From positions 28,799-92,798 of IMG/VR virus record IMGVR_UViG_3300025141_000047: DNA of 64,000 bases; one strand, written 5' to 3'. Under the pieces are notes generated by a model, which was not told the origin of the DNA, ran no database searches, and saw nothing but the letters and a program-made list of their open reading frames with translations. Position 1 is the first letter of the stretch, and every line of letters begins with the position of its first letter. The position numbers and the translations under genes are program-made. This stretch comes from a virus. This document shows positions 20,177 through 49,936 of this stretch, in pieces.

Positions 20177-21325
20177 TCAGGCGGATAGGTCACGGATCTT
20201 GCCGTGTGCGCCATAAAAGAGTTGCCAAAGTTCACCCATTGTGTGGAAGAGTCCGACTTGACCAAGACGGTTGATACCGAATGGATCGCCAGTCTCGATT
20301 CCGCTTTCGTGGTAAAGAGTTGGTTTTGCTGTGCAGAAATACATATAGTCTGTATCAAGCATATAGATGCGAGATAGGCCACCAGTTGGTGCATGAACGT
20401 CTTTTGCAGGGATGATAGGAACGCCGTTGTAGGTTGCGACTACAAAGCCACCTTCCATACCAGGGATTCCTTGAACACCGTTCACGGAGGGGGTGACTCT
20501 CTTCATCTCAGTAAATCGTTGCTGAGGCTGCAAGAGTTGTTGAATTTTCTCGATGGTATCATACCCTGTGAGCATGACCTTTGGCTGACCTCCACGTTCC
20601 CAGACACTTCGGAACATTCCATCAAGAATGTTCAAGGTCAAAGGTCGTTCAGCACCAGCAGTTCCCATATCCACGTTTGCATCGAACCAGTCGTTTGCGC
20701 CAGTGGAGTTGCGAGTAATTGAATACATATTGTGGTCTGTCAAAGCCGAAATATCGCCAAAGGAAGCAGGTTCACTGAAAGACGATGATGTAGCACGATC
20801 AATGGATTCAAAGTTGTTTCCAGCGACAGTATCAACATCTCGAAGAAGCATCTTGTTGATTGATTCAGCGTGGGATTTTGACATCTCCATCTTGATAACT
20901 GCTCTTGCATCGCCCAGTCCATCATCCTTGTCTGCAAGGAACATGGCGGTTTCGCTGAGGTCAAACTTGGAAGCCACAGTCTTTGGCTTGGTGCTGACTT
21001 CTGCAAATGTTGGCTTGGTGGAATCAGGTAGCGCACCGTTCTCAGGAAGACCTACTGCATCAGTTGGCTTTCCAGTCACGACACGCCATCCAGACTTCTC
21101 CCAGGGTTTCTTAGGAAGAATTGAGAATGCGTTGAACTCTTGGTTCAATTGCGACCAGACTTTGCGGCCAAATATCGCTTGGTAAGTTCCAGCAGTTGAG
21201 GACATCAACGGTGAATCAGCCTTGAGTAAGTCTGTTCCGCTATATGCCCATGCGTTTGTTCCAGCACCCGCACCGTAGTAAAGGCGTTCCATGTCTTCGA
21301 TTGTTCGGATATATCCTTGCGTCAT
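20177..21325 (-). CDS. Major capsid protein, HK97 fold, 382 aa
   Basis: The start is taken at the ATG at 21325, because GGAG lies 9 bases before it, the same arrangement as the next gene; the ATG at 21340 is an alternative. Features of an HK97-type capsid protein are an N-terminal helical arm, a segment near FSILPKKPWEKSGWRVVTG, the 'pk.va....lS' region (KPKTVASKFDLSETAMFLAD) that forms the E-loop/spine helix start, and the C-terminal A-domain pattern (GGFVVATYNGVPIIPAKDV). It lies directly downstream of the protease/scaffold gene and upstream of small head proteins. It would build the icosahedral shell. Confidence 0.85.
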   Translation of the reverse strand: MTQGYIRTIEDMERLYYGAGAGTNAWAYSGTDLLKADSPLMSSTAGTYQAIFGRKVWSQLNQEFNAFSILPKKPWEKSGWRVVTGKPTDAVGLPENGALPDSTKPTFAEVSTKPKTVASKFDLSETAMFLADKDDGLGDARAVIKMEMSKSHAESINKMLLRDVDTVAGNNFESIDRATSSSFSEPASFGDISALTDHNMYSITRNSTGANDWFDANVDMGTAGAERPLTLNILDGMFRSVWERGGQPKVMLTGYDTIEKIQQLLQPQQRFTEMKRVTPSVNGVQGIPGMEGGFVVATYNGVPIIPAKDVHAPTGGLSRIYMLDTDYMYFCTAKPTLYHESGIETGDPFGINRLGQVGLFHTMGELWQLFYGAHGKIRDLSA

Positions 21326-21354
21326 CTTTTTCATCTCCATTTATTTTTTGATTT

Positions 21355-22134
21355 TCACTCGCCTCGCAAAGCACGTTGAGCGAGCATTTCTGCTGCTCGC
21401 CAGCCATCAAGGTCTGTTCCCATTGCATTGAACTCATCATGAGTCGGCACACGGATGGAAGTTGTAGGTTGGGTTGGTGAAACATCGCTCTTTTGTAGCG
21501 ATGCGTTCTCGGACTTGAGCATTGCGATCTCTTCACGGAGGGAGTTGAGTTGAACTCCAACATCGTTTGCCTTTCGCATCTCAATAGCCTGAGTTGTTTC
21601 AGCGTTGTATCGCTCTTGCCATTCTTTCTCAACAAGACCCTTTACTGCTTCTTCATCACGGAGAGCAGCGTAGGTTCGATAGCCCTTTTCCAATGTTTCA
21701 GGAGTCAAGGACTTGATAACGTTTCCATTGCCTTTTGGTGCGTTCATTTTCATTGATGGCGCACGTGGGGCTTTGATGACATTTTGATTGCCGCTTGGGG
21801 ATGGGAGAGAAGGATAGGATGGCTCGGATGCACCTTCGCCAGAACCTACTTCATCGCCTTGTCCTCGATGGGAATATCCGCCACGACCTTGTTCAAGAAG
21901 GTATGCCTTCTCTAAGCCGAAGTGACCACGAACTGCATTCAAATCAACGCCAGATTCATGAGCGAACTTTTCAAGTGTGGTGATATAGTCAAGAGCCGCT
22001 TCATCCGCATGGGATTTCTGGGTGTCTTGGTATTCATCGCTCTTTTCTTCCTTTTCTTCGGATTTTTCGCTCAGTTCTTTGAGGACTGAGTTCAGTCCAG
22101 CCTTTATTTCATTCAGGGTTTCAGTATTGCTCAT
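21355..22134 (-). CDS. Scaffold protein from internal start within protease gene, 259 aa
   Basis: At residue 184 of the fusion an in-frame ATG (22134) is preceded by GGAAGATGATAAT, almost the same context as the ATGs of the capsid and decoration genes (GGAGATG plus 5-8 bases). Protein starting here would be the scaffold alone (MSNTETLNEIKAGLNSVLKE...). Lambda C/Nu3 uses the same device. The start context is seen in the sequence; its use is inferred. Confidence 0.5.
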   Translation of the reverse strand: MSNTETLNEIKAGLNSVLKELSEKSEEKEEKSDEYQDTQKSHADEAALDYITTLEKFAHESGVDLNAVRGHFGLEKAYLLEQGRGGYSHRGQGDEVGSGEGASEPSYPSLPSPSGNQNVIKAPRAPSMKMNAPKGNGNVIKSLTPETLEKGYRTYAALRDEEAVKGLVEKEWQERYNAETTQAIEMRKANDVGVQLNSLREEIAMLKSENASLQKSDVSPTQPTTSIRVPTHDEFNAMGTDLDGWRAAEMLAQRALRGE

Positions 22135-22683
22135 ATTATCATCTTCCATTTTTAGTATTGTGTAGGTTGATTCTGGGTTTATTCCTTTCTTGCATAGCGT
22201 GATTTCATGCAATTCAAGATCGGTAATCTCTCTATGGTTTCCAAGTTCTGGTGTGGTTTTACTCACACGGAATAGGGCTTGACCGCCAATCGAGAATGCT
22301 CGCAAGTCACCGTTGCGAATTTGCTTTTGCACTTCACGTGCTTTTTGAATGTCGCTGCGGATTTTGCAGACGACGAAGAGGCCGTGATCATCAACTTCGG
22401 ATTTCCAAACACGGCCTTCTGCATCGGTGTGGTCGCCAACGACTTCACCAACTTGGATTCCTGAATGTGCTAACTGAACATTGCGGAATGCTTTGTTATC
22501 CATGAATTGACCGAATGCTTTCTTTAGAGCAGCAGTTGGGATTCTATCTCCCTGCTTATCGACCATATCAACAGATGCGTAGCCAGCAACAAAGAGTTCG
22601 CCTTGACTACCTGATGACTTCAACAAAAAATCCGATCCTTCCGCATTCCATGATGCGGTGTGGAGTTCGAGACTGGTCGCCAT
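21355..22683 (-). CDS. HK97-type prohead protease fused to scaffold, 442 aa
   Basis: Residues 28-165 match the prohead serine protease family (U35-like). They include GELFVAGYASVDMVDKQGD, the catalytic His region LAHSG (H73), AFSIGG with the nucleophile S131, and the closing LHEITLC with an acidic E160. Residues 184-442 are a long, charged, helical region with coiled coil (LNSLREEIAMLKSENASL) like a scaffold, ending next to the capsid gene. The protease would clip the scaffold and other internal proteins during head maturation. Protease-scaffold fusions are known in tailed viruses. An internal start could produce free scaffold (listed separately). Confidence 0.85.
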   Translation of the reverse strand: MATSLELHTASWNAEGSDFLLKSSGSQGELFVAGYASVDMVDKQGDRIPTAALKKAFGQFMDNKAFRNVQLAHSGIQVGEVVGDHTDAEGRVWKSEVDDHGLFVVCKIRSDIQKAREVQKQIRNGDLRAFSIGGQALFRVSKTTPELGNHREITDLELHEITLCKKGINPESTYTILKMEDDNMSNTETLNEIKAGLNSVLKELSEKSEEKEEKSDEYQDTQKSHADEAALDYITTLEKFAHESGVDLNAVRGHFGLEKAYLLEQGRGGYSHRGQGDEVGSGEGASEPSYPSLPSPSGNQNVIKAPRAPSMKMNAPKGNGNVIKSLTPETLEKGYRTYAALRDEEAVKGLVEKEWQERYNAETTQAIEMRKANDVGVQLNSLREEIAMLKSENASLQKSDVSPTQPTTSIRVPTHDEFNAMGTDLDGWRAAEMLAQRALRGE

Positions 22684-22725
22684 TGATTCTAACGACTTTG
22701 TGTAATCCTATATGAAGGGATATGT

Positions 22726-25700
22726 TCAAATCTCTTCTGCTTCCGACCTATCATCAGGTTCGGCTTCTTGCTCATCAGCCATTTCCTGTTGCGTTTTTAG
22801 GGGCATTCTTAGAGTTGCAGTTCCATTTTGAACATCTATTACTGCTTGTTCCCCTGTTGCGGAGTCTTTAACCTGCAAATGTTTCATTGGAATCTCTTCA
22901 ACTTCTTCGGATTCTTTGGGATCGTAAAATGTAGTCCCGCTATCCTCTATGAGTTCTGTTGGACCTCTTGGGGCGGTAATATCGGCTTGCATCCCCGCCC
23001 ATGCGCCACCATCTGGTGAAATACGATTCATTCTCGGAAACATATTTTCGATAATATCATCATCTATTGCTTCATTAACAGTCCATTTTTTCCCATCATC
23101 TGTCCTTTCAAGGCCATATTCTCCTGAAAACATCTCAAGCATTTTCTCATTGAGTCCTTTGACATTATCCAACAAGTATTCTGTTGTTTTTGCCGTATCA
23201 TCCTCAGTTATTGTCTTACGTGCCTGTTGCATAGTGTGTGCTACATTATCGCCTTCTTCATTTTCACCAATGATTGATGGCGCACGTAGCAAGGTCTTTT
23301 TTACAATACTCAATTTTCGAGGTCGCTTTCTTTTCAGGGTTGAATGAAGTGGCTGATGAGTTCCACCATCACTTGAAGTGACTGTCCCACCTGCCGCAGC
23401 ACCGCCTCCCCCTGCCGCAGCACCTTCTTTCAATAAATCAACTGCGACTGGACCCCATAATGGAATGTCATTTTGTGCTTTTGTGAACATGGCTTCGTTT
23501 CCTTCAAATGTTGAGATGGTGAAGCCCTTTCCATCAAATTCACCCTTTACAATTACAGGATCATAAATTGAAGGATATACCAATTTTATTTGATTGGGAT
23601 AGACAATGAGTTCAGGCATTGGAGGATAGAATGCTTTAGCGATGGAATCCTTTGCGTATCTAATCCACTTTGGGTGGACTTCTTTTTCTTTCATGAATGT
23701 TGAACGTGAATCTCGAATTAACAATTCATCATCGTCAAAATTATGTATCGCTTTTCCTAAACCTTCTTGATCGGTTGATACGCAATTAGTGGGCATTGGA
23801 AAATGCACATTTTCTGTTGAATCATAAAGTGTCCTTAACGCATTGATACGATCTTCAAGGGGTTCAAGGTGCATATCTGTTCCTTTGTGAACCAACAAAT
23901 CAACTACTTTGAGGGTCTTTCCATCCAAATATCCATCAAAAGTAAAATCCCCTTTTATTTCACGCAATTGCTTCTTTATTGAACTGGGCAATTTATCTGT
24001 TTTCAAATGATTACCTTTTCTTTCAATGAACATTCGCTCTCCTTGCGGCATTTTTTGAACTATCCAATCTCCTGAGAATCCACGCAACTTATCCATGTCA
24101 TCTAATTTGTGAATCGTGTATGCTGGAATGATTTTGGTTGTAAAAACGCCAGTTGGTTCATAGTCCTCCGCTTTGAGAATGCTTCCTGTTGCGATAGGCG
24201 AAAGTCCTCTATGGTCTAAAGCCGATAAAGCATGAATATCTCTTTGCTTCGGCATAACATTTGACTCCAATAGTGAAGGCAATACTGCCTTTATTTTGTT
24301 TTCATGAACAGTTCTTTGCATAATGTTGAACGGTTCTTCGGCCATTCCAAAACTGATGCCCCCGCTTTGAGGATCATGTTTCCATGTAAGCGTTGCTGGC
24401 ATTTCATGACCCCAAAGGTGGGTGTTTCCAGTATTGTAAGTGGGAGGGGTTGTAGCAAATGATGTAGGATGAACGGGTCCAAGTTGTTTCAATTGCATTG
24501 CTATTTTGTTTCCATTCATTGTTGGGGCTAAGGCTCGGTATTCTTCCCCCATATTCATTTTCTTCATAGCAAAATCAGCCGCACCTGCAAGTTGTTGTAG
24601 GTTTCCACGTGCGAGAGTTGCTTGTTCCATGTTTGTTGGATCGGAGGGATTAAGGATTTGAGGTCCAAGTTGTTTCATCACCCTTTGAGCCATATTGTTC
24701 ATCACTTTACCCATGTGCATATCATTTGCGGCGAATAAAGCGTTGTGATTATCCCAGTATGTAGGGTTTGATGAGGGGTGTTCTTCACGGAACATACCGA
24801 TTCTTGGTGAACCCATATCTGCTTGACCAGATAAAGAACGCCCTAAACGACTCATCATCATTTGGTCGGATGGGACAATCATTCGGCCTCCTTGACCTTG
24901 AACTTCACTGGGATGCAAAAAATGAAGGTTTGAAGCATGACTCCAATTCGCCCTCCGCTTCTCGAAAAAGTCGGCATCGTTGAAATTTGATGTTAAAGAG
25001 GCGTGTGATGGATTATTCTTTGCATCAGGATGGTTGGAGATGTGAGGAAAGTGGCTTCCCCCATCGGATTCATAGGTGTCAAGCATACTGTTTGAAACGC
25101 CCATTAAAGCCTCATCAAGCCAACCGCCGCCGAAAACTTTTGGGTATGTTTGACTCATTATGTCATGCAATGAATTTGAATCACGCCCCACGCCTCCCCA
25201 GGGCTGAAATATGTCCCACCAATGATGGGTATGCGATGGTTCAACGCCATTCGCCATCTCAACAAAAGGACTGACAAAGTGCAAATCAGCACTTGCTTCA
25301 TCACTTTTCATAAACTCGGCGTTTGGCATCATTTGAGGAATTGGTTCTTTTGCAGGGCAAACTGGACCATGACGATCACTTGCCCTGCGCCACCATTGAA
25401 GGAGAGGAATATATCTCGCTCGAAATGAGCGTAATGCCCGACCCCATGAAATCCCCGCCTTTTCGCTCATTTTGTTTTTCAACACTTTAGCATCAGGTGA
25501 GTTCATGTCTTTTTTTGTAGCCATCTGTTGCATCAGCCCCAAAAACTGTTCTCGTTGATCCTCAGTGTTATATTCCAAACCAAACAGATAAGGCAACAAA
25601 CCCAATCGCTTTTGCCATTCATTGATTTTCCCATCACGGTATTCGTCATCGGAATATGTGCTGTATCTATTCCGATCACGTGTCATCAAATCATGCAACG

Positions 25701-39321: not shown

Positions 39322-39751
39322 CCTTCAACCTCCTTCGGATAGAACGATAAACAACATCAATTTCATTTGGTAATGACATATACCATTGAGCCAAAGAAGG
39401 AACACGTGCGTATGACTTTGACATTGGAAGCATTTTCTGTTTGAGATCGGTGATAATCTGTGTTCCATCTAAAAGTGAAATACAATCGGCTAAGGAATTT
39501 TCTTTCAACACTTTCAAATCGTCAATCAATAATCGTGTGACTACCAAAGAGCCGAGTATTTCTGCAACGATGTTCTCAGGGAACTCCAAATGTTCGGCAA
39601 CGGCTTCCGACCAACGTTTGACGACCATATCAACAGAATTGGTGTAAGCCATTAAATCTCCGATAGTCCATTCATCCTTTGGTTTCTTACTGTTAAGCCG
39701 AATATAATGTTCGGGTATATCCTTGAGCATCAATTGACGAATTGTTTTCAT
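39311..39751 (-). CDS. Helical protein, 146 aa, packaging region
   Basis: The ATG at 39751 overlaps the upstream TAA as TAATG; a longer reading to 39799 would run into the upstream gene. The sequence is almost entirely helical, with hydrophobic heptads (NIVAEILGSLVVTRLLIDDLKVLKE in outline), and a basic end (RSIRRRLKDGQ). It follows the zinc-finger candidate small terminase with coupled translation and could be its partner. Unrecognised. Confidence 0.5.
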   Translation of the reverse strand: MKTIRQLMLKDIPEHYIRLNSKKPKDEWTIGDLMAYTNSVDMVVKRWSEAVAEHLEFPENIVAEILGSLVVTRLLIDDLKVLKENSLADCISLLDGTQIITDLKQKMLPMSKSYARVPSLAQWYMSLPNEIDVVYRSIRRRLKDGQ

Positions 39752-40458
39752 TAACTCATCACCCCTGATGCAACAAGACGCTGTTTCAATTCCACCCATT
39801 CTTGAGGTGATTTTTCCGAATAGAATTGTTGAAGCACATTGAGTATTGATACGGATTGCTTATCCTCAATTGTTTCGGCCTTCTCCATCCACTTTGTCAA
39901 TTCAACCAAAGTATCTCGAACTTCACGATGAACCTTCAAAGCGGTTTCAACATCACGCATTTCAATAACCTCTTCCTCATCATCAAATTGGTTTTCCACG
40001 TGATCAAGAACACGGCCAAGCAAACGATCTAAACGGTTCATATTTTTCTCAACACGCCCCAATGATTCATGGACTGTTTTCATAGCGTTTGGCAACGCTT
40101 CAATATGAACGTGTTGTTGAATTATTGGTTTTGTATGCTTCTCCATGTGAGTTGATACAAGGCTACTGGCAACCCCCAACTCAATTGCGAAGTCATCAAT
40201 ACCTGCTATTCCTTCAAGGATTGCCTTTTCAATTTGAGAACGGTTTGGGTCGGTGCAAATGGGGCATGAGGTATTGCTATTATTGTAATACTCACCAGAA
40301 TGCCTTCTCATGTGCCGATGAGTTGTTCCCTCAGCCCATTGATATTCTAAATCACAGTCTTTGACATCAAGAGAACCTTCAAGGATTTTCTTTTCGATTA
40401 AATCACGTTCTGGGTGCTGACAGAAGGAGCAATTTTTCCTTGTCTGCCGACCAGCCAT
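39751..40458 (-). CDS. Tandem zinc-finger DNA-binding protein, candidate terminase small subunit, 235 aa
   Basis: The ATG at 40458 has a GGTGGGAT site. Two similar repeats are visible: C10-x2-C13 with H49-x3-H53, and C65-x2-C68 with H104-x3-H108. Each has the form CxxC..P.R..IE..ILEG..(helix)..H..xH, which suggests a zinc-bound helix-turn-helix. Residues 115-190 contain a coiled coil (LGRVEKNMNRLDRLLGRVLD). DNA-binding N-terminus plus oligomerising coiled coil is the usual plan of small terminases, and the gene lies upstream of the head module, though seven genes before the large subunit. A transcription factor is the main alternative. Confidence 0.55.
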   Translation of the reverse strand: MAGRQTRKNCSFCQHPERDLIEKKILEGSLDVKDCDLEYQWAEGTTHRHMRRHSGEYYNNSNTSCPICTDPNRSQIEKAILEGIAGIDDFAIELGVASSLVSTHMEKHTKPIIQQHVHIEALPNAMKTVHESLGRVEKNMNRLDRLLGRVLDHVENQFDDEEEVIEMRDVETALKVHREVRDTLVELTKWMEKAETIEDKQSVSILNVLQQFYSEKSPQEWVELKQRLVASGVMS

Positions 40459-40719: not shown

Positions 40720-40968
40720 CTACCGAAAAGAAGCAAATTGGCGAACTGCAATTGCGAAAGTGAATAGCAAACCGAATGCTCCCATCAAAACCTGTGTGGA
40801 GGTGAGTTCCGATCCTCTCCAAACAAGCATGACGAACATAGACATCATGAATGAGATAATAAAAATCATTGTTGCACTTTCAACCAACATTTTGTTGGGG
40901 CTGAGAATTGCGTTTGGTGCGCTGTAAAAATTTAGGTCTTGGCTGTTATCTGGTTGTTGATTGGTCAT
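40720..40968 (-). CDS. Small membrane protein with two transmembrane helices, 82 aa
   Basis: The ATG at 40968 overlaps the upstream stop as ATGA. Residues 30-51 (ATMIFIISFMMSMFVMLVW) and 60-78 (VLMGAFGLLFTFAIAVRQF) are hydrophobic helices joined by a short polar loop. Size and topology fit a class II holin or a virion membrane protein. No lysis enzyme is visible beside it, so a lysis role is only one option. Confidence 0.55.
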   Translation of the reverse strand: MTNQQPDNSQDLNFYSAPNAILSPNKMLVESATMIFIISFMMSMFVMLVWRGSELTSTQVLMGAFGLLFTFAIAVRQFASFR

Positions 40969-41606
40969 AGAACTGTTGCCCCCATTGCTGCACCCTTAGC
41001 GACTGTCGTTCCGAAGCCACCTTGTTGCTGGACTTGGTTTCCAAGCATTCCTCCAAGCAAACTGCCGAAGAATCCTGGTTGTTGTTGCGGATTCATACTC
41101 ATCCCCATTGAATGTGCTTGCATGAACATCTGTCTTTGTTGCTCATTCATTGCGATGGTTTGCTGTGCAGATGATTGAAGGCGAGTCATGGTCAAGCCGA
41201 GATTTTCTGGTGAAAGCGTGTTGATTGATGCTGGTAAAGAAGCGGCATCAAGGGTGATTTTACCCGCTTCGTCTTGAACAAAGGAAACTTGAGTAAAGAA
41301 CTCCTTAATTGACAATCGAACTACTTCTCCGATTAAATCCATGACCAAACCAATGTTTTGTGTAGTGATAAATTGCGCTACTGGGTCATTAAGTTGAAGC
41401 AAACGTGCGGTTGCGGTGACGGGATCGTTAGCCATCTGTTGCATCATTGGGTTTTGCGCCATTTGCATTCCCATCATAGAAGGGTCCATGCCCATTCCCA
41501 TGCCATTGTTCATGCCCATTCCCATGCCTTGCATTCCCATTTGTTGTTGAGGCGCACCAAATTGGGTGCTGCTTTGTGCCGTGTCGTTTCTTCCAAACCA
41601 TCCCAT
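40965..41606 (-). CDS. Met/Gly-rich protein, 213 aa
   Basis: The ATG at 41606 has an AGGTGA Shine-Dalgarno site; an earlier GTG at 41615 is less likely. Residues 15-60 consist of repeated GMGMG/NGMGMGMDP-type units rich in Met, Gly and Gln. Residues 70-150 form a folded helical domain (IGLVMDLIGEVVRLSIKEFFTQ). The C-terminus is again Gln/Gly-rich with a hydrophobic end (GTTVAKGAAMGATVL). Possibly membrane-associated, since it lies in a cluster of membrane proteins. Unrecognised. Confidence 0.5.
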   Translation of the reverse strand: MGWFGRNDTAQSSTQFGAPQQQMGMQGMGMGMNNGMGMGMDPSMMGMQMAQNPMMQQMANDPVTATARLLQLNDPVAQFITTQNIGLVMDLIGEVVRLSIKEFFTQVSFVQDEAGKITLDAASLPASINTLSPENLGLTMTRLQSSAQQTIAMNEQQRQMFMQAHSMGMSMNPQQQPGFFGSLLGGMLGNQVQQQGGFGTTVAKGAAMGATVL

Positions 41607-41615
41607 GTCATTCAC

Positions 41616-42596
41616 CTACTGTTGAATTGCGCCTTCTTGACGAGCCATTAACTGTGCATTCATAGCACTTTGCATAGCAACTCCATTTGCCATAGCGTTT
41701 CTTTGAGCCATTACTGTTTCCGCTTGTAAAGCCCGTAAATCAAAAGTCACCTGCACAATATCCACCACCCCAGATGTTGGATTTGGGAGTTGAGTTAATT
41801 GAACTCCTTTGCTGTGTTGTGCGTCTTTGTGAATCATAGCAAAGAACGGTTCATATTTCAACAATGATTCACTGGTGCTTCTATTCTTTGCTTGTGAACC
41901 GCCCATCAGTGCGCCAACACCAGGAATGCGATTGAACTTTGTTCCTTTTGAAGCAATGCGGCTGAATCCTTCCTCAGCCATTTCATGTTCTTGAACTAAA
42001 GACTTCAAAGTGTGAAATATGTGAAGGTGTGCGGGGCAAAGAGAACTGCTCATTTCATCGCCGTGATCGCCATGTGTTCTCGCCAAAGGTTTTCGAGCAT
42101 TCCCTGTTTCTTCATCAAACCAATAGATGTCGGCTAAAGAAAGCCCTGTTGATTCATCAACAATGTGTGCATAGGCATTATCTCCTTCAAGGAATCTCCG
42201 AATATCAACGCCGCAACAAGCGCATTCATGTGCTGCATTGTAGCGATAGATTTTGAAAAGTCCCAGATTGTAATTTGGTGGCCTCAATGCTTTCCTGAGC
42301 ATTTTGATGTTTTGTTTTCGAGCCTTCTTAGGGTTCTTTGCATTCTGTTTCAATTGAATTTCAACAGTTGGAATCAATTGCTCATCCCCCACATCTCCCG
42401 TTGAACCTGCACTTGCCATCTCAGCACGTTGTTGCGATTTTAGCAACTCATAAGAAACCCCTGTTTGAGAGGACACTATTTTCAATTGCTCATCGTCTAA
42501 ACCATGCAATTTCAAGCCTCTTTGATAAGGCAAATATGACATCGGGTTCAATGCTCTTGCATTCCACGCCATTAACCCTCCCATAACTGACAACAT
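41616..42596 (-). CDS. Unknown Cys/His-containing protein, 326 aa
   Basis: The start is the ATG at 42596, after the upstream stop (42610); GGAG lies 10 bases before it. Residues 95-190 hold a likely zinc site: HECACCGVDI, then AHIVDES and later SLCPAHLHIFH. The C/C...H...C/H order could be an HNH-like or other treble-clef fold, but the catalytic pattern is not clear. The C-terminal 60 residues are helical and Met/Ala/Gln-rich (METVMAQRNAMANG-like composition). Translation follows that of the GTPase gene. Function unknown. Confidence 0.5.
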   Translation of the reverse strand: MLSVMGGLMAWNARALNPMSYLPYQRGLKLHGLDDEQLKIVSSQTGVSYELLKSQQRAEMASAGSTGDVGDEQLIPTVEIQLKQNAKNPKKARKQNIKMLRKALRPPNYNLGLFKIYRYNAAHECACCGVDIRRFLEGDNAYAHIVDESTGLSLADIYWFDEETGNARKPLARTHGDHGDEMSSSLCPAHLHIFHTLKSLVQEHEMAEEGFSRIASKGTKFNRIPGVGALMGGSQAKNRSTSESLLKYEPFFAMIHKDAQHSKGVQLTQLPNPTSGVVDIVQVTFDLRALQAETVMAQRNAMANGVAMQSAMNAQLMARQEGAIQQ

Positions 42597-42609: not shown

Positions 42610-43341
42610 CTACAAAGAATCCAATAATTCAATTAAACTCTTTTCAACGTTAATTCCGTGTTGAGAAGACATAGCCATCACCTCAGCACGAATACCTGCT
42701 TTACGCAATCGTTTCAAAGAGTCACGGAAAGGGGCGACAATGGGGTGTTCCTTTTGTAATCCTAAGTTCCAAAGCGTTTCAGCCCGATCATCCCACCAAA
42801 TATCCATTTTATTCACCATTAAACAAAATAAGCGAGGGGTATATTTTTTTGAGTTCTTTTTTGCTTTGCGTGATATTTTTTTGGTGATGTCTTTTTTGGT
42901 GATGTTATCCACCAGATAAGAAAGACTCGCCGCAGCATCCATAGCAAACTGCATCGAAGTCATGGCTCGGTGATCAACCATGAAAATAACCAGTTCAACA
43001 TTTCTTCCGAACATATCATCAATCCAAAGGTTGCGAAACATTGAATCCCCTGCAATATCTGTTGTAGTAATTGGTTTTTTCACCTTCACCATGCGAACCT
43101 GTTTTCGAGATTCTTGAGGTTGCCTAAATCCTGTTTGAGTATTGGATTTGGGGTGTGCAGTTCTCATGTGAAACGGAATAGGGTCAATATCACCTGGAAC
43201 AGTGAGGTATTGATCAAGAGTTGTCTTTCCAACCATTGATGGTCCGTAAATCCCGACTCTAAACGGTCTAAGAATGCGATATAATGTGTAAAGGGCTGAG
43301 GCGGAGGCCATAACCATGTGTCCCGCAATTAGGGCTGACAT
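42610..43341 (-). CDS. P-loop small GTPase-like protein with N-terminal hydrophobic segment, 243 aa
   Basis: Walker A/G1 is GPSMVGKTT (residues 33-41), G3 is DIAGD (residues 95-99, DxxG) and G4 is NKMD (residues 177-180, NKxD). The order, spacing and the strand before G4 (RLFCLMV) fit a Ras/Arf/SR-beta-like GTPase. Residues 2-24 are hydrophobic and may anchor the protein to a membrane. A Lys-rich insertion (KKDITKKISRKAKKNSKK) lies before G4. Neighbours on both sides are small membrane proteins. Such GTPases are rare in tailed viruses. The role may be membrane remodelling, trafficking of virion components or host signalling; this is inferred. Confidence 0.8.
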   Translation of the reverse strand: MSALIAGHMVMASASALYTLYRILRPFRVGIYGPSMVGKTTLDQYLTVPGDIDPIPFHMRTAHPKSNTQTGFRQPQESRKQVRMVKVKKPITTTDIAGDSMFRNLWIDDMFGRNVELVIFMVDHRAMTSMQFAMDAAASLSYLVDNITKKDITKKISRKAKKNSKKYTPRLFCLMVNKMDIWWDDRAETLWNLGLQKEHPIVAPFRDSLKRLRKAGIRAEVMAMSSQHGINVEKSLIELLDSL

Positions 43342-43351
43342 GGTTCAAGCC

Positions 43352-43576
43352 TCAATTGAAAATTCCTTTGATTTTCTCCCAAACGTCTGTTGGCGATAGC
43401 CCCACTACATCGAGTCCGATTAAGATCGCAAAAGTCAAGGCGATTCCGCCAATTAAAGCAACAAATGTCCTGACCCATCCAGCAACCCTCTCCATTTTTC
43501 TTTCGTAAGCATTTTCAGCGAGTATTTGCGACATCGCTTCGGTTTGTCGCTCTTGTTGAGTTGTGAAAGGCCACAT
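43352..43576 (-). CDS. Small membrane protein, one transmembrane helix, 74 aa
   Basis: The ATG at 43576 is chosen over an earlier TTG. The N-terminal 35 residues are polar and helical (TQQERQTEAMSQILAENAYERK has a coiled-coil feel). Residues 38-60 (VRTFVALIGGIALTFAILIG) are a transmembrane helix, followed by a short C-terminal tail. It sits between the GTPase and a two-helix membrane protein. Function unknown; it may be the membrane partner of the GTPase. Confidence 0.55.
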   Translation of the reverse strand: MWPFTTQQERQTEAMSQILAENAYERKMERVAGWVRTFVALIGGIALTFAILIGLDVVGLSPTDVWEKIKGIFN

Positions 43577-43595
43577 GATTACACCCAAGAGTCAA

Positions 43596-44036
43596 TCATT
43601 CTTCTTTCTTGTCATTCGGGATTCCAAATGTGTTTTGTGTTGGCGGCGCATATTGGCCTTGTTGGTTTTGCCAATAATTTTGTTTAGATGCCCTGCGTTG
43701 AGCCAAACGTGCTTGTTGTCGTTGCCACTTATCCACTTGATTTTCTCTTGAGAACTCAGCCCTCATAGCCAAAGAATCTCGAATGCCGCCTACATGGAAA
43801 AGAACCATTGAAGTGCAAAGGAAACCAAAAGCGATCAATCCGTATTGTAGCCCCATTTCACCTGCCCCTGCATCTGGGAGATACCAACCTGCGTGAGAAA
43901 TTGCTACTGCGATCCCCGTCAAAAGGGCTTGCCATAGCAACATCGCAATGAGGTTAATGTCAATTCTGTTTGTATCGTCGGGCATATATGGGGGCGGATA
44001 AAAGCCCCGTTGCTGTTTTTCATCAGGTTTAGTCAT
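43596..44036 (-). CDS. Membrane protein with two transmembrane helices and charged tail, 146 aa
   Basis: The ATG at 44036 overlaps the last codons of the ribbon-helix-helix gene. Residues 26-46 (LIAMLLWQALLTGIAVAIS) and 58-82 (LQYGLIAFGFLCTSMVLFHV) are hydrophobic helices. The rest is a Gln/Arg-rich cytoplasm-type tail with a probable coiled coil (RENQVDKWQRQQARLAQRRA). Second gene of the leftward unit that begins at 44175. Confidence 0.55.
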   Translation of the reverse strand: MTKPDEKQQRGFYPPPYMPDDTNRIDINLIAMLLWQALLTGIAVAISHAGWYLPDAGAGEMGLQYGLIAFGFLCTSMVLFHVGGIRDSLAMRAEFSRENQVDKWQRQQARLAQRRASKQNYWQNQQGQYAPPTQNTFGIPNDKKEE

Positions 44037-44175
44037 CGGTATTCACCTTTTCCTTGTTTTTGAAGTAAAAGGCAAGCGCATGATTAACAAAGGATGATTT
44101 GGACTCACGCCCTCGTTCTGCTTCCATTTTAACAAAAAGTTGCTCTCTCATCACAACAGAAACGTGCTTGCCCAT
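44029..44175 (-). CDS. Ribbon-helix-helix (CopG/MetJ-like) regulator, 48 aa
   Basis: A 48-residue frame starts at the ATG at 44175, with a perfect GGAGGT site four bases upstream. The sequence has the ribbon-helix-helix order: an N-terminal strand (KHVSVVMREQLFVKM) where 'R/K-x-S/T-V' residues read DNA, a first helix (REQLFVKMEAERGRE), the S-K-S-S-F turn and a second helix (FVNHALAFYFKNKEK). Compare the typical 'sks.fi..Al..yl' ending. It is the first gene of the leftward membrane/GTPase unit, next to a divergent promoter with repeats, and probably represses that promoter. Confidence 0.8.
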   Translation of the reverse strand: MGKHVSVVMREQLFVKMEAERGRESKSSFVNHALAFYFKNKEKVNTDD

Positions 44176-44255: not shown

Positions 44256-44768
44256 ATGTCCGATGTGAATTTGATTGAAGCGGTGCATACCCTACGATCA
44301 TACAACATTGCATTAAATGGAATGACAAATGACCCTCAAAGCATCTCTTCATGGATTACTCGATATGCTGAGAACTCAGGAAAAGCCCCTAATTTTACCC
44401 AAGAGGCCGCTATTGGTTTGCTTTGTCATTTAGGAAACCCAATTTATGTGTATGCAAATCTAAGCCCTCTTCAACAACAATGGTCTGGGATATTCGCAAG
44501 TGCGGAACAGGTTTTGATTCAAGAAGCAAACTGGCAAAACACCCAACATTCGCAAAATAGCCAAACCTCTTTTGCACGATTGTTTGGAACAGATAAAGAA
44601 TGGATTCAACTTTACGCTCAATCACTACAATATCCAATGGATATTTCATTTGAGTATTTTGTGAATAAAATTATCTCCGATCTCCGAACCTGTCAAGGTT
44701 CAAGTGGTGCAGGTGGAATCTCTCATTCACCAATGACTCCGCCGAGTATGCAACAACAGATACCTTAG
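44256..44768 (+). CDS. Only rightward gene; helical protein of unknown function, 170 aa
   Basis: The ATG at 44256 lies about 13 bases after the inferred rightward transcription start. The protein is helical (QSISSWITRYAENSG, EEWIQL-like segments), has no membrane helix, and ends with a Pro/Met/Ser/Gln-rich tail. Its stop overlaps the stop of the convergent methyltransferase gene by three bases (44765-44768). Being divergently transcribed from a regulator, it may act early or have a regulatory role. Family not recognised. Confidence 0.55.
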   Translation: MSDVNLIEAVHTLRSYNIALNGMTNDPQSISSWITRYAENSGKAPNFTQEAAIGLLCHLGNPIYVYANLSPLQQQWSGIFASAEQVLIQEANWQNTQHSQNSQTSFARLFGTDKEWIQLYAQSLQYPMDISFEYFVNKIISDLRTCQGSSGAGGISHSPMTPPSMQQQIP

Positions 44769-47059
44769 AATAAAGTGCGTTGCGCTGGCTGAGGATTCTT
44801 TGCACGTTCCCATGCTGATTGGAATGCGTCTTGATCAATGTTCGCCATAGCCATAAGTTCTCCAACCGTTCCTCTTGTGTTTGGATCGGAACTTGAAAGG
44901 TCTTTTCGACCCAATTCATGGATTGTAAATCCAGCATCACGCAACGGTTCAACAATTGAAGGGTGCATTGAATTGAAAACCGTAGTCGGAATGCCCCTGT
45001 TCTTTGCATCAATCATTTGTTGAATGAGCCGTTCTTGCTCATCCTTTCCAAAGAAACCATGTGCGCCCTCTTCACCAAAGTAAGGAGGGTCAAATGTCAA
45101 TAGGTTCTTGTCGGCTTTCATTTGGTCTTTGATGTCGTCATAGAACTCAAAGGCATTACCTGTTCTCCAATCCCAGTCTTTCATAGCATCATGCCAGGGT
45201 GTGAAATCATGTTCCCCGACCCCCCCTCGAATTGGAGTTGGTCGGAAAGCGTTGCCCCCTGGTTGAATACGGCCTTTGTATCGGTCTTTTTCAGGGTCGT
45301 AAAATCCAGCATCCTTCATTTGTTGGAAAAATGAACCTGCTAATTCTTCATCTTCGGGGATATGTTGCTTTGAACGTGTAGTTCCTGGTGGAGTTGAATA
45401 TGGATTATCCCATGAAGGCATTTCTTTTCCTTTGCCGTATCGAACCAAACTGTTGAAGCCAGTCAATTGAAGCATATAGAAAATCTCAGCCATTTTATCA
45501 TACTCTTCGGGAGTTGCAGTTCCACTTGCTGCCTTTTCCCTCAATCCAGCGTATTGATTGCGGAGATTGTAAAAATGTGCTGGAATAAAAGTTCTGTTGC
45601 CTTCACCGAAACGATTCTTCATCTCTTCCGTCATTGTTCCGATATTCATTTGACCTAATGTTGGATGAGGGATTGTGATTGGTTCGCCCACCCCCACATT
45701 GTATTGTTCAGGGTCTATTTTCATTGGTTCTCGGATGATTCTTCGCATTAAATTGCCTATATCTGGGTTTATGTCGTTAATGATTGCTCTTGATGGTTTA
45801 AACCCCAATGAGAGTCCTCCACCACCACCGAATGTTTCAATCATTTCACGATCTCCAAGCGTTTCACGCAATGCGCCCATTATTTGGGAATACATGGGAT
45901 TGTTTTTGACTCCTTGAAGTCGAAACGCCGTAGGTAATGCTTGCCTTCGGCTAAAATCGCCAGACGATGGATGCGGCATCTTTTCAAGACTCATTTCATC
46001 TCGTATTTGTATGCTCTCTAAAGCCCTGCGGATAACATCGCCAGATAAAGCAGCATCCCATGATTCAAGACCTGCATTTGTCAAATCACGTGGATCGAAG
46101 TAAATTCCATGTGTTCCTGTGGTGATTCCACGTGATAATGCAGGGCGTAAATCCCCTGTAATGCTCATTGGAACTGGAACCCCTTCAAATCGGTGTCCTG
46201 ATGGATCAACATATTCCAAATAACGGCCTCCGCCTTGTTGTATGCTATCTCTCACCCTATCTGGTGCTTCATTTTGAGCAAACTGCAAAGGTATTTTCAA
46301 CAATGGATCAACTGAACCAGATACTTTGTAGTCAAGCGGCTCACGCCAGGGATGCCCTGCATCGACACGATACCTTCTATTATCAAATTGGAATCTCTTT
46401 CTTCCAAGAGAACGGTCTTTGATGTCATAAACGTCATACCCAAATCGAGGGGCTTCAATCAATTGCCCACCTGCATTCCAAGAAACTTGGGCATCGCCGT
46501 ATGGATTGCGATCCAAAACAATTTCTTGATTCATCCCTAAAATCTCTTGAGGACTACGCTTTCCTTCTATCAAGTCCATGAGTTCTTGATGTTCTAAATT
46601 TCCTCTCGACCATAGGTGTTCAGTTCGTTGTGGGTTTTTTCTTGGGTCTTTTTCCCTCAACACATACGCATTTTTTTGGGCGTTCCTACTCACGTCAAAA
46701 TGAGGGTCACGGAGAGGTAAAAAATTAGAGATTGATGTTAAACTATCCCCTATTTTCGGAAAGTTCCTTTTTACTGTCAAAACGCCTGTATCTCGCCTAA
46801 TATCTCCACTTGGCAAGCGACCAGGTGATATATGACCTGCATTCGCTAAATTTCTAAATGCCGATATGTTGAATGGTCGTTCCTTTTTATCGCCAGAAGG
46901 ATAATTGCGCCAATCTTCACGGAAAGTGTTTAATTGACCTTTCATGTTCTCAAGAGGATATGCGTTCACGCCATCTAATGAAATCGTTCCTAATTCTGGC
47001 CGATCTCGCTTTTGAGTATCGAGGCTATCCCACCACGCCTTCTCGAATATGTCCGACAT
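44765..47059 (-). CDS. Leader-tagged D12-class adenine DNA methyltransferase, 764 aa
   Basis: Leader MSDIFEKAWWDSL (F5, W9) opens the protein. Residues 20-370 are an unrecognised N-terminal region. From about residue 380 there is a Dam/D12-type N6-adenine methyltransferase: ETFGGGGGLSLGF (residues 408-420, SAM-binding motif I), INDINPDI (428-435) and the catalytic DPPY at 657-660, with a region of about 230 residues between them that would include the target-recognition domain. It would methylate adenine in viral or host DNA. The ATG overlaps the upstream TAA (TAATG) after GGAGGGGG. It is the last gene of the leftward accessory unit. Confidence 0.85.
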   Translation of the reverse strand: MSDIFEKAWWDSLDTQKRDRPELGTISLDGVNAYPLENMKGQLNTFREDWRNYPSGDKKERPFNISAFRNLANAGHISPGRLPSGDIRRDTGVLTVKRNFPKIGDSLTSISNFLPLRDPHFDVSRNAQKNAYVLREKDPRKNPQRTEHLWSRGNLEHQELMDLIEGKRSPQEILGMNQEIVLDRNPYGDAQVSWNAGGQLIEAPRFGYDVYDIKDRSLGRKRFQFDNRRYRVDAGHPWREPLDYKVSGSVDPLLKIPLQFAQNEAPDRVRDSIQQGGGRYLEYVDPSGHRFEGVPVPMSITGDLRPALSRGITTGTHGIYFDPRDLTNAGLESWDAALSGDVIRRALESIQIRDEMSLEKMPHPSSGDFSRRQALPTAFRLQGVKNNPMYSQIMGALRETLGDREMIETFGGGGGLSLGFKPSRAIINDINPDIGNLMRRIIREPMKIDPEQYNVGVGEPITIPHPTLGQMNIGTMTEEMKNRFGEGNRTFIPAHFYNLRNQYAGLREKAASGTATPEEYDKMAEIFYMLQLTGFNSLVRYGKGKEMPSWDNPYSTPPGTTRSKQHIPEDEELAGSFFQQMKDAGFYDPEKDRYKGRIQPGGNAFRPTPIRGGVGEHDFTPWHDAMKDWDWRTGNAFEFYDDIKDQMKADKNLLTFDPPYFGEEGAHGFFGKDEQERLIQQMIDAKNRGIPTTVFNSMHPSIVEPLRDAGFTIHELGRKDLSSSDPNTRGTVGELMAMANIDQDAFQSAWERAKNPQPAQRTLF

Positions 47060-48183
47060 TATGCCCCCTCCCCTCGATTAAGCCTTATTTTCCCAACCTG
47101 TGGTTTGTTGATATATGAAACATTAGGAACATCACCATCCATACAGGCCAAGCAATTTGCGCTCTCTTCTGGACCGTATGTTGCGTTTGGAACGCAAGCC
47201 TTTGCCGATGAATTGGGGTCATCTTTCGGACAAAAATGCGTATCTCCAACTATTGCTGAATCAGGCAACATTCCCGTATTGACAAGCCATTCATCCCATA
47301 CTTCTGATCTCAATGTTTGAGGATGGTCTAAGACCCTGCGCTGTCCTGGATTCAAAACTCCGTGTTCTCCAACAACATTTCGATTCCATTCATCATCAAT
47401 CGTTTGATTCCTAAACGGCATTGACATTCTTAATCTAACATTTGGAGGCAACGCATCATGAGCATAACCTCTTGCTGACAAGACTTTATTCACCATTCCA
47501 AACTCTCTTGTTGGAATCCAATGAATCACGTCTGGATTCAAAGTCGCCATATCAAGAAGCATAGCCAAATGTTCAGGTGAATGCAAATCTCCCGAATCAA
47601 ACATACGGAATACGGGATAGCCGTTATGTGATTCTGTGGGGATCTGTGAAGCCAATTGAGAATGATAACCGATAGGGTCTTGCAGCATATCATTGTAAGC
47701 CTTTAATTGATTTCGAGTCGCATTGTTGTTATTGTAGGTGAATCCCTCAGCATAGCACCCATAGCAAGTTGAATCTCTTTTGTCTTTCAAATGTTTTCCA
47801 GTCGCACATAGTTCCGTTGGATATGATGTTGAGCGTGAAGGCATTGTTGTTGTTTCAGCCAAATAAACAGGCAAACGTCTATCCGAATCCCCCATTGGAT
47901 TGCTAAAATCAATGTTAGGAAGGTTTCTTGTTGCGTGGTGTTCCGCCAACAGGTTTTGATTCAAAGGATAATTCATTTTGACCTTACGAAGATCGGTCAT
48001 TTTTCTTTCGCCTTCGGGCGAATTGATGTAATTTTGAACTTCAATACCGCCCTTTGGGAACTTTTCAGGGGCATAAAGCAACTCATTCCACGTGAAATCC
48101 ATTGGGTCAATTTGCTTTTGACCTCTTGGACCGTCAATCAAAGGCATTTTTAACAATGACCAAACGGTTTCAAAGGCTTGCAT
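47059..48183 (-). CDS. Leader-tagged GP88-family protein, 374 aa
   Basis: The ATG at 48183 is preferred over a TTG at 48192. The leader reads MQAFETVWSLLKMP (F4, W8, K12). The body resembles the phage gene product 88 family: LPVYLAETTTMPSRS, then a cysteine cluster C126, C140, C143 (..CATGKHLKD..STCYGCYAEG), a conserved FRMFDSGDLHS segment and a second cluster near the end (HFCPKD..KACVPN..NCLACMDGD). The function of GP88 proteins is unknown; the cysteine arrangement suggests metal or Fe-S binding. This match is from memory of the family and deserves a profile search. Confidence 0.65.
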   Translation of the reverse strand: MQAFETVWSLLKMPLIDGPRGQKQIDPMDFTWNELLYAPEKFPKGGIEVQNYINSPEGERKMTDLRKVKMNYPLNQNLLAEHHATRNLPNIDFSNPMGDSDRRLPVYLAETTTMPSRSTSYPTELCATGKHLKDKRDSTCYGCYAEGFTYNNNNATRNQLKAYNDMLQDPIGYHSQLASQIPTESHNGYPVFRMFDSGDLHSPEHLAMLLDMATLNPDVIHWIPTREFGMVNKVLSARGYAHDALPPNVRLRMSMPFRNQTIDDEWNRNVVGEHGVLNPGQRRVLDHPQTLRSEVWDEWLVNTGMLPDSAIVGDTHFCPKDDPNSSAKACVPNATYGPEESANCLACMDGDVPNVSYINKPQVGKIRLNRGEGA

Positions 48184-48188
48184 AAATC

Positions 48189-48533
48189 TCAATCCTTCTT
48201 CACTTTAGCATGAAGCCGCCTAAGCGTTTCACTTTGGAGGTTTGCTGGCTTTCTGGTTGCAGGTTTCTTTGGAGGCTCATTCCCCTTTGCCCTCGCAATC
48301 ATACGATCCATCGTTGAATTTCCAGTTGGGTTGTCTTTCTTTGGTTTTTCAGTGGCCTTATTTTCCTTTGGCTTATTTATTTCAGCCATATTATCATCAA
48401 CTGCCGCATCAATATCCTTGTTGCGGTCACTTTCATTCCACCATGCTTCTTTAGCGAGTAAATCCCATACACGGTCAAAGCATTCGCCAGCCATGTGATC
48501 GGCAAAGCGACTTTGGCTATCAATTTGACTCAT
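48189..48533 (-). CDS. Leader-tagged small basic protein, 114 aa
   Basis: The leader is at residues 17-30: ECFDRVWDLLAKEAWW (F19, W23, K28). An ATG at 48494 would place it at the N-terminus as in the other genes; the ATG at 48533 overlaps the upstream stop (ATGA). The rest is disordered and rich in Lys, Pro, Asn and Glu (EKPKKDNPTGNS), with a basic end (ETLRRLHAKVKKD). It has no enzyme domain. It may be an internal, DNA-associated packaged protein, or an adaptor. Confidence 0.55.
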   Translation of the reverse strand: MSQIDSQSRFADHMAGECFDRVWDLLAKEAWWNESDRNKDIDAAVDDNMAEINKPKENKATEKPKKDNPTGNSTMDRMIARAKGNEPPKKPATRKPANLQSETLRRLHAKVKKD

Positions 48534-49864
48534 CTAAAGTCGTCAAGAAGAGTCTTTTGTTGATTTGAGCCGAGAATCCCACGACCTATTGCATTTGATA
48601 CTGAACCGTGAACAACATTCCCAATCATTTGATCAAGCGCATTTATTCTTTTCCCTGATGAGGCTATGTAAGGAGATGCTGACATAGCCGATGAAATATC
48701 ATAATCGGGGCGAATGCCTTGAATCATCATTACTTCTTGTGGAGTTAATTTACGATTGTAGGCGAGGGTGGGCATATTGTGAGTAATTCCTGTCACATGA
48801 GAAGTTATTGGTTTTCGATGTTGGAATGTGGTCGGCAAACCTGTTTTTTTGCTTGTTGCGTTTAAATCATGCCATTGTGGATATTCGCCCTTGTGTTTTC
48901 CAGTTCCAGGATTTGTCCCGCCCGATTGAGATATGAAACTTGTATTCATGAGGTATTCTGCAACTTCTGGGCTGATGTTTCCCTGTGCAAGCATCCCATC
49001 AATCACGGCTTTCCTTTGTGGCTTATTTTCTTGCTCATCACGTTCAAGGTGCGGCAAATAATCCAAAACGCTTGGACTCATTTTTGTCCCAGGTATTGGT
49101 TTGCGATCACGATGATAATGCGTTGGTTCGGCTTTCCAACCTTCGCCAATGAATGTTCGGCCTCTTGTTGAAGGTGCGCCAAAATTGATTGCATCCAATT
49201 TAGGATGGTTGCGAAGCAATTGCATTACACGCTTTTGAAACGGTTTGCTCACATAAGGTTCAAGCAAATGTGGGTTTTCTTGAATGAATTTTGCTACTGC
49301 TGGTGCTTCTTCAAGCGACCATGATTGAAGGTCAATGTCTGGGTGCTTCATCATCTGTTCAACGGTGTAAAGTGCGTTTCCGATCATTGGGAATGCCGAC
49401 ATACGACTTTCATGAATTTCTTCATCTGTTTTACCTGCTGGTCCAGTCCTTCTTTGGGCATTTGTGAATGCTTGACAAGGAGGTGAGGCGTGATAATGGA
49501 TTTTGCGACCTTGTGATAAGTCGGCGTATTGTTCGACTAAATCATCAGGATGAAGCATACCTTGTTCTGTTCCGATATAGCCCTCAATGATTTTTCCATC
49601 ATGGTTTGCTCGCCTTACATCATTTGCTGCTCTCCATGCTTCAACCGATGCTAATGTTGGAATCCCTGCTCTCGATAGCCCCTCATCCATGCCGCCCATC
49701 CCTGCAAACTCCGTAAAAGCCCCCCAGTCATTACGCATTGGCATTTGAGGGAAACGTCTGTCAAAATCAGCCCTCATCTGTTGTAAATCCCAATCTGTGG
49801 GGGCTTTCATGAGCATAGATGACCAAGCCTCCTGAAATAAAGGCTCGCTCATAGTTGTCTGCAT
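48530..49864 (-). CDS. Leader-tagged C5-cytosine DNA methyltransferase, 444 aa
   Basis: The start is the ATG at 49864 (an ATG at 49852 also fits); the frame could be extended to a TTG at 49933. Leader residues are LFQEAWSSMLMK (F10, W14, K20). Motif I is FTEFAGMGGMDEGL (residues 50-62). Motif IV is ASPPCQAFT with the catalytic Cys130. Motif VIII/IX-like RKLTPQEVMMIQGIRPDY and motif X-like GNVVHGSVSNAIGRGI are near the C-terminus. This is the family order of m5C methyltransferases, here with the leader added in front. A target-recognition region lies between residues 250 and 370. Confidence 0.85.
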   Translation of the reverse strand: MQTTMSEPLFQEAWSSMLMKAPTDWDLQQMRADFDRRFPQMPMRNDWGAFTEFAGMGGMDEGLSRAGIPTLASVEAWRAANDVRRANHDGKIIEGYIGTEQGMLHPDDLVEQYADLSQGRKIHYHASPPCQAFTNAQRRTGPAGKTDEEIHESRMSAFPMIGNALYTVEQMMKHPDIDLQSWSLEEAPAVAKFIQENPHLLEPYVSKPFQKRVMQLLRNHPKLDAINFGAPSTRGRTFIGEGWKAEPTHYHRDRKPIPGTKMSPSVLDYLPHLERDEQENKPQRKAVIDGMLAQGNISPEVAEYLMNTSFISQSGGTNPGTGKHKGEYPQWHDLNATSKKTGLPTTFQHRKPITSHVTGITHNMPTLAYNRKLTPQEVMMIQGIRPDYDISSAMSASPYIASSGKRINALDQMIGNVVHGSVSNAIGRGILGSNQQKTLLDDFR

Positions 49865-49936
49865 AATCGCCCCAGATAAAAGCCTATCCCTTTCATCAGG
49901 TGGATGGAGAGGCTTTAATAACAAAACACTCAAGAT

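Follow-up and report, generated by a model that had tools for sequence, protein, structure and literature searches.

The window, by which we mean the whole 64,000-nucleotide stretch of DNA analysed here, is part of a 92.8-kb virus record (G000) and encodes a protein of 243 amino acids that is, judging from its motifs and predicted fold, almost certainly a Ras-superfamily small GTPase of the Arf-like type. Its gene lies in a conserved cassette with several membrane protein genes, and the protein is probably a membrane-recruited switch working with this cassette. That the virus-encoded GTPase acts with its cassette partners in late membrane remodelling, assembly or egress is a proposal for which we see roughly even prospects.

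The GTPase gene and its family

The gene and its features are:

42610-43341, minus strand: gene of the predicted Arf-like small GTPase, 243 aa, ATG start
43270-43338, minus strand: amphipathic/hydrophobic helix at the N-terminus, residues 2-24, probably a membrane anchor (helix in the model, hydropathy, hydrophobic moment)
43219-43245, minus strand: G1/P-loop GPSMVGKTT, residues 33-41 (alignment of relatives)
43150-43164, minus strand: putative switch I RTAHP, residues 60-64 (R60 and T61 invariant in 39/39)
43045-43059, minus strand: G3 DIAGD, residues 95-99, followed by Arf-like FRNLW (alignment of relatives)
42835-42903, minus strand: basic insertion between alpha3 and beta5, residues 147-169 (net charge +9)
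42802-42813, minus strand: G4 NKMD, residues 177-180 (alignment of relatives)
42655-42669, minus strand: G5 SSQHG, residues 225-229 (alignment of relatives)

A first-pass annotation had proposed a Ras/Arf-like GTPase here from the motifs GPSMVGKTT, DIAGD and NKMD. The reading frame with its ATG start is present as described, the three motifs have the claimed order and spacing, and the proposal was borne out by motifs, profile searches, predicted fold and conserved gene order. Across 39 relatives, G1 (GxxxxGK[ST]), G3 (DxxG), G4 ([NT]KxD) and an SA-type G5 occur in order and are invariant or nearly so; residues G33, G38, K39, T40, T41, R60, T61, D95, G98, W106, N177, K178, D180 and G229 do not vary down to approximately 40% identity. 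The G5 motif, which the annotation had left to be looked for, is SSQHG in the window protein and SAQHG or SAQYG in most relatives. Thr61 is a candidate for the G2 threonine. The stretch C-terminal to the P-loop, TLDQYLTVPGDI[DE].IP...RT.H, is long and nearly invariant in the alignment, and the basic insertion of approximately 23 residues has a mean charge of +7.5 (minimum +5) in the 39 sequences.

An Arf-type switch II (DxGGQ...R.LW) is present in the family, and G3 reads DIGGQ or DIAGQ in most relatives. The position of the usual catalytic glutamine is occupied by Gln in 27 of the 39 proteins, by Asp in eight, which form the window's clade, and by Glu or His in four. Since its clade has Asp at this position, the window GTPase may hydrolyse GTP slowly or depend on a partner. 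Between close relatives, the synonymous sites of the gene are almost saturated, and dN/dS amounts to 0.03-0.10 in those comparisons for which it could be calculated. Together with the invariant motif residues this shows that the motifs are no chance event and that the gene is real and under purifying selection.

The hydrophobic segment that had been noted ahead of the motifs exists, but it lies within the GTPase as its own N-terminal helix. Its Kyte-Doolittle maximum over 19 residues is 1.31, short of the usual threshold of 1.6 for transmembrane helices, and its hydrophobic moment is 0.44 (in relatives whose N-terminus is complete, 0.37-0.69, except L052 with 0.27). The helix therefore looks amphipathic rather than clearly transmembrane.

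The AlphaFold2 model based on the 39-sequence alignment (pLDDT 80, pTM 0.80) was used instead of one from 12 sequences (pLDDT 58). It has the strand and helix order of small GTPases, to which a helix at the N-terminus and an insertion ahead of beta5 are added; residues 38-52 are below pLDDT 50, so that the P-loop and switch I are poorly modelled. A PDB fold search with this model yielded 763 matches at E ≤ 0.001, of which the best 50 all belong to the Ras superfamily. Arf1 (4hmy_C) had the best target-normalised TM score among the matches listed (0.67), and the best matches among viral proteins were small GTPases (Ras/Rab) of giant eukaryotic viruses.

Single-sequence searches of Pfam and PDB with the window GTPase were weak. 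Homer domains, at the top of the single-sequence PDB search, were discarded as unrelated and spurious; profile and fold searches give the Ras superfamily. The profile of the 39 relatives matched best to PDB entry 8oun (“GTP-binding protein,” E 3.9e-6), and Arl8-type Arf-like proteins were among the next matches; we take 8oun and 8oum to be Asgard Arf-related proteins. Arf (PF00025) is the Pfam family matched by most relatives: 25 of the 39 match at E ≤ 0.1, the window protein remains below the curated cut-off, and a divergent viral relative in G257 exceeds it (24.9 versus 22.3 bits). Compared with 30 small-GTPase loci of one Asgard genome, the viral profile matched the three strongest Arf-type proteins best. 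The phylogeny with archaeal small GTPases that the annotation had called for, comprising Asgard and ArvA proteins, places the viral proteins in one clade (100/99), which is joined to the Asgard Arf-type proteins with a support of only 65/6, the branches being long.

Another P-loop class (AAA or dethiobiotin synthetase-like), which the annotation had named as the finding that would count against it, has next to no probability left: weak AAA_24 or AAA_28 matches in single family members and the leading Homer domains speak for it, but NKxD and G5 are conserved in the 39 relatives, the model shows the small-GTPase strand and helix order, and other P-loop folds were rejected on the fold search with its 50 best Ras-superfamily matches.

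The cassette and its carriers

The cassette runs from a 48-aa ORF over TM2, TM1, the GTPase, p338, p216 and an 82-aa membrane protein to p235, and onward to TerL. The genes around the GTPase are:

44029-44175, minus strand: 48-aa ORF at the cassette head, perhaps ribbon-helix-helix-like, possible regulator (homolog in 53 loci)
43596-44036, minus strand: TM2, 146 aa, two predicted TM helices (hydropathy, conserved place)
43352-43576, minus strand: TM1, one predicted TM helix (ATG at 43576 agrees with relatives; TTG at 43588 also possible)
41616-42596, minus strand: p338, conserved Cys/His, candidate zinc site and candidate GTPase partner (adjoins the GTPase in every locus compared)
40965-41615, minus strand: p216, Gln/Gly/Met-rich N-terminus, helical middle, Gly-rich C-terminus (conserved cassette place)
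40720-40968, minus strand: 82-aa protein, two predicted TM helices (hydropathy, conserved place)
39751-40458, minus strand: p235, two Cys/His repeats and HTH-like region, cassette end (conserved cassette place)

Membrane topology, for the GTPase as for the cassette proteins, is that of hydropathy predictions only. Membrane proteins had been described on both flanks of the GTPase gene. Upstream this is correct, a two-helix and a one-helix protein being encoded directly next to it, but the downstream one is the third gene and not adjacent. The 48-aa ORF (MGKHVSVVMREQLF...RGRESKSSFVNHALAFYF), missing from the initial ORF list, has, by eye, some likeness to ribbon-helix-helix proteins. For p338, ATG 42596 was favoured over TTG 42632 as the start; C125, C187, H190, H192 and H195 are conserved in its family, and nothing in Pfam, PDB or the phage collection matched it. 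Profiles of p338, p216 and p235 returned nothing informative from PDB except a weak HTH match for p235. The latter also matches weakly to protein 108 of HVTV-1, encoded by the gene before TerL, and might be a TerS-like protein.

GTPase, p338 and p235 were found in 88/88 loci compared. The membrane proteins of distant relatives (approximately 40% identity) are mostly beyond the reach of BLAST, yet they occupy the same places and have the same kind of helix. Searches starting from p235 and p338 found the GTPase in 149 of 159 loci, a linkage test and no count of viruses, as each scan comprised the best 80 matches and the contigs overlap. The other ten loci begin too near the contig end; thus, all 149 that are long enough carry the GTPase cassette. 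Hundreds of contigs have the cassette beside TerS/TerL, and TerL and portal genes follow on the same strand in nearly all relatives.

A different arrangement was found on G257:C65, a 128-kb contig in a genome of the order Poseidoniales with GroEL, head-closure and tape-measure-like genes, apparently of an unrelated tailed virus. It contains TM2, TM1, GTPase, p338 and p216 in that order; no TerS-like gene follows this core, and homologs of the window's TerL, portal and capsid protein could not be detected. HVTV-1 has the capsid gene in common with the window but no such cassette. The cassette is thus, by gene order, separable from the packaging genes.

The same contig (L311-L317) also encodes a Dam methylase, glycosyltransferases, a TFIIB-like protein and a serine recombinase. 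An 895-aa ORF (20699-23386 of the contig; L312:699-3386) contains domain 5 of RNA polymerase Rpb1 together with a large insertion that might be an intein. A virus-encoded part of an RNA polymerase would be unusual for an archaeal tailed virus; the contig otherwise looks viral and could include host DNA. In the window, a 170-aa ORF (44256-44768, plus strand) lies just 5′ of the cassette on the opposite strand, and it is conserved at the same divergent place in 26 loci. D12-type and C5-type DNA methyltransferase genes and a GP88-like gene are located further upstream (44765-49933, minus strand), and the left end of the window's record has more methyltransferases and a PAPS-reductase-like gene.

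The window's virus is tailed, as had been annotated, with HK97-type MCP, protease, portal, terminase and tape measure. Relatives of the GTPase occur on at least 249 IMG/VR contigs. The view that small GTPases are unusual in tailed viruses agrees with our searches of INPHARED, PHROGs and BFVD, on which this rarity rests: 0 of 50,697 phage records contained a relative, and PHROGs gave no match. Chaperonin and PolB have been described for magroviruses (PMC10768690, PMC12999244, PMC5332604). Among the cassette-bearing virus records, chaperonin was found in 12/13 and PolB in 6/13, MCM in none. We regard the carriers as tailed viruses of the magrovirus type (Magrovirales and relatives). Chaperonin and PolB are both absent from the window's record, which may therefore be incomplete or belong to another clade.

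A 54% identical GTPase relative is located beside virion genes on a contig of 106 kb from the genome of a single Poseidoniales cell. This contig also encodes TerL and portal proteins 77% identical to those of the window; about two thirds of it are N, and the picture would be the same if a virus particle had been sorted together with the cell. From this relative we infer that Poseidoniales, abundant archaea of the ocean, are the host of the window's virus. No Arf-family match was obtained in 60 Poseidoniales genomes, and the viral GTPase profile gave two matches (2/293), of which one lies on the single cell's virus contig and the other on a contig with viral genes. Recent acquisition of the gene from the host is not supported by these results. 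Weak Ras-family matches in 12 of the 60 genomes are located within open frames of about 370-680 aa and thus are probably other GTPases.

Possible functions of the cassette

In the reading that we prefer, the GTPase in its GTP state would be attached to the inner face of the host membrane by the N-terminal helix and the basic insertion. There it would recruit or organise TM2, TM1, p338, p216 and the 82-aa membrane protein, and by its cycling the membrane would be reorganised or deformed late in infection, either for assembly at the membrane or for egress. Arf and Sar1 reorganise or deform membranes in cells. The archaeal vesicle GTPase ArvA drives vesicle formation (PMC10927574). With its conserved Cys/His residues p338 might act as a regulator, much like the Zn-ribbon protein ArvC; this is the least secure part of the proposal. 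The location of the cassette on the same strand as the terminase, portal and capsid genes suggests late timing.

The membrane switch draws on the motifs, the fold, the Arf profile matches, the amphipathic helix, the basic insertion and the membrane proteins of the cassette, and likewise on the separability from packaging genes, the lack of Arf matches in the 60 Poseidoniales genomes and the ArvA precedent. Points against it are the Asp in place of the catalytic Gln in the window's clade, the poorly modelled P-loop and switch I, and the location beside TerS/TerL in hundreds of contigs, which is also compatible with a role in packaging. For membrane remodelling in the service of assembly or egress in particular, our doubts somewhat exceed our confidence. 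Slightly more speculative is the idea of a self-sufficient Arf/ArvA-like membrane-remodelling module, made up of the GTPase, a Cys/His regulator, the small membrane proteins and p216, that moves between unrelated tailed viruses, is brought into a host without Arf-type GTPases and serves assembly at membranes or egress there. The earlier suggestion of host membrane manipulation or virion trafficking is compatible with the evidence for the GTPase.

The same location beside TerS/TerL is the basis for a second explanation, in which the GTPase serves assembly or packaging: as a GTP switch it would set the timing of head assembly, of portal placement or of genome packaging, and the membrane proteins would anchor the assembly site. 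A TerS-like gene ends the cassette, and TerL and portal come next on the same strand in nearly all relatives. However, HVTV-1 lacks the cassette although capsid and general head-gene order are in common, and the core on G257:C65 is not beside a terminase. Packaging as such thus needs no cassette, and we consider this role unlikely. Somewhat less probable again is an action on the host envelope at entry or in superinfection exclusion, with the GTPase regulating how incoming DNA is blocked or guided. The conservation of several small membrane proteins among viruses that infect one host order would suit such a function, but a late structural gene block is an unusual place for exclusion genes. Accessory exclusion genes are not usually conserved near-universally, as this cassette is.

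Interference with host defence or signalling, for instance as a nucleotide sponge or decoy and without membrane remodelling, appears improbable. The replaced catalytic Gln in the window's clade recalls some inactive or slow GTPases, but Gln is retained in 27/39 relatives, and the invariant P-loop, NKxD and gene linkage favour an active switch with fixed partners. Moreover, the 60 Poseidoniales genomes revealed no Arf-type host GTPase to mimic.

Relation to known GTPases and viruses

The viral GTPases share with Arf, Arl and Sar1, including the Asgard Arf-like proteins (PF00025), the Ras-superfamily fold, the N-terminal helix, NKxD and SAxxG, as well as DxGGQ..F(R/W)NLW around switch II. They differ in the long conserved stretch after the P-loop, the basic insertion before beta5 and the long branch, joined to the Asgard Arf-type proteins at the support given above. 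The window protein furthermore has no detectable MG start of the N-myristoylation type, and its clade has Asp for Gln.

ArvA of Haloferax volcanii is an Arf-related GTPase with an amphipathic helix; vesicle production falls when it is lost and rises upon overexpression, and its partners are ArvB and ArvC (PMC10927574). Like ArvA, the viral protein is a small archaeal GTPase with an N-terminal amphipathic helix and adjoining partner genes, one with a zinc motif (in the virus a candidate one), and it is 43% identical to ArvA over 49 columns at the P-loop and switch I. At G3, ArvA has DTPG, whereas DxxG(Q/D) together with the Arf-like FRNLW is found in the viral proteins. The viral GTPase thus resembles ArvA at the P-loop and switch I and Arf at switch II. 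No homolog of ArvB (OapB, DUF2073) or ArvC was seen, and the window's cassette neighbours had no Pfam match. Membership in the ArvA family was rejected: G3 differs, the alignment stops after the first 49 columns, and the two form separate clades in the tree.

Giant viruses (Klosneuvirinae, Pithovirus relatives and others) encode small GTPases too, and these are the nearest viral fold matches. They are annotated as Ras, Rab or Ran, belong to eukaryotic viruses and are only 8-18% identical to the window GTPase in the fold comparison. The window-type GTPase, in contrast, is carried by tailed viruses of archaea, in whose host order no Arf-type protein was found.

In the haloarchaeal tailed Druskaviridae (HVTV-1, HCTV-1) the capsid protein is approximately 33% identical to that of the window over nearly its full length, which agrees with published trees of MCPs in which Druskaviridae fall among marine archaeal viruses (PMC8651126). 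HVTV-1 also shares the general order of head genes and has a gene for a helix-turn-helix and coiled-coil protein before TerL. The region before TerL in HVTV-1 contains no GTPase, p338, p216 or membrane-protein cassette.

None of the open-access texts consulted mentions a GTPase; a prior mention in the main magrovirus papers is possible. Membrane-shaping small GTPases have long been regarded as eukaryotic. With ArvA, an archaeal small GTPase that serves vesicle formation was described (PMC10927574). If our preferred reading is true, tailed viruses too run GTP-driven membrane processes, with an Arf-like switch in hundreds of marine virus contigs. The cassette would then be a testable handle on the assembly or exit of abundant, uncultured marine archaeal viruses. 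The GTPase gene always keeps company with the same small membrane-protein genes, although no Arf-type switch was found in the 60 Poseidoniales genomes, and this suggests a GTP-driven machine for work on cell membranes that the virus itself supplies.
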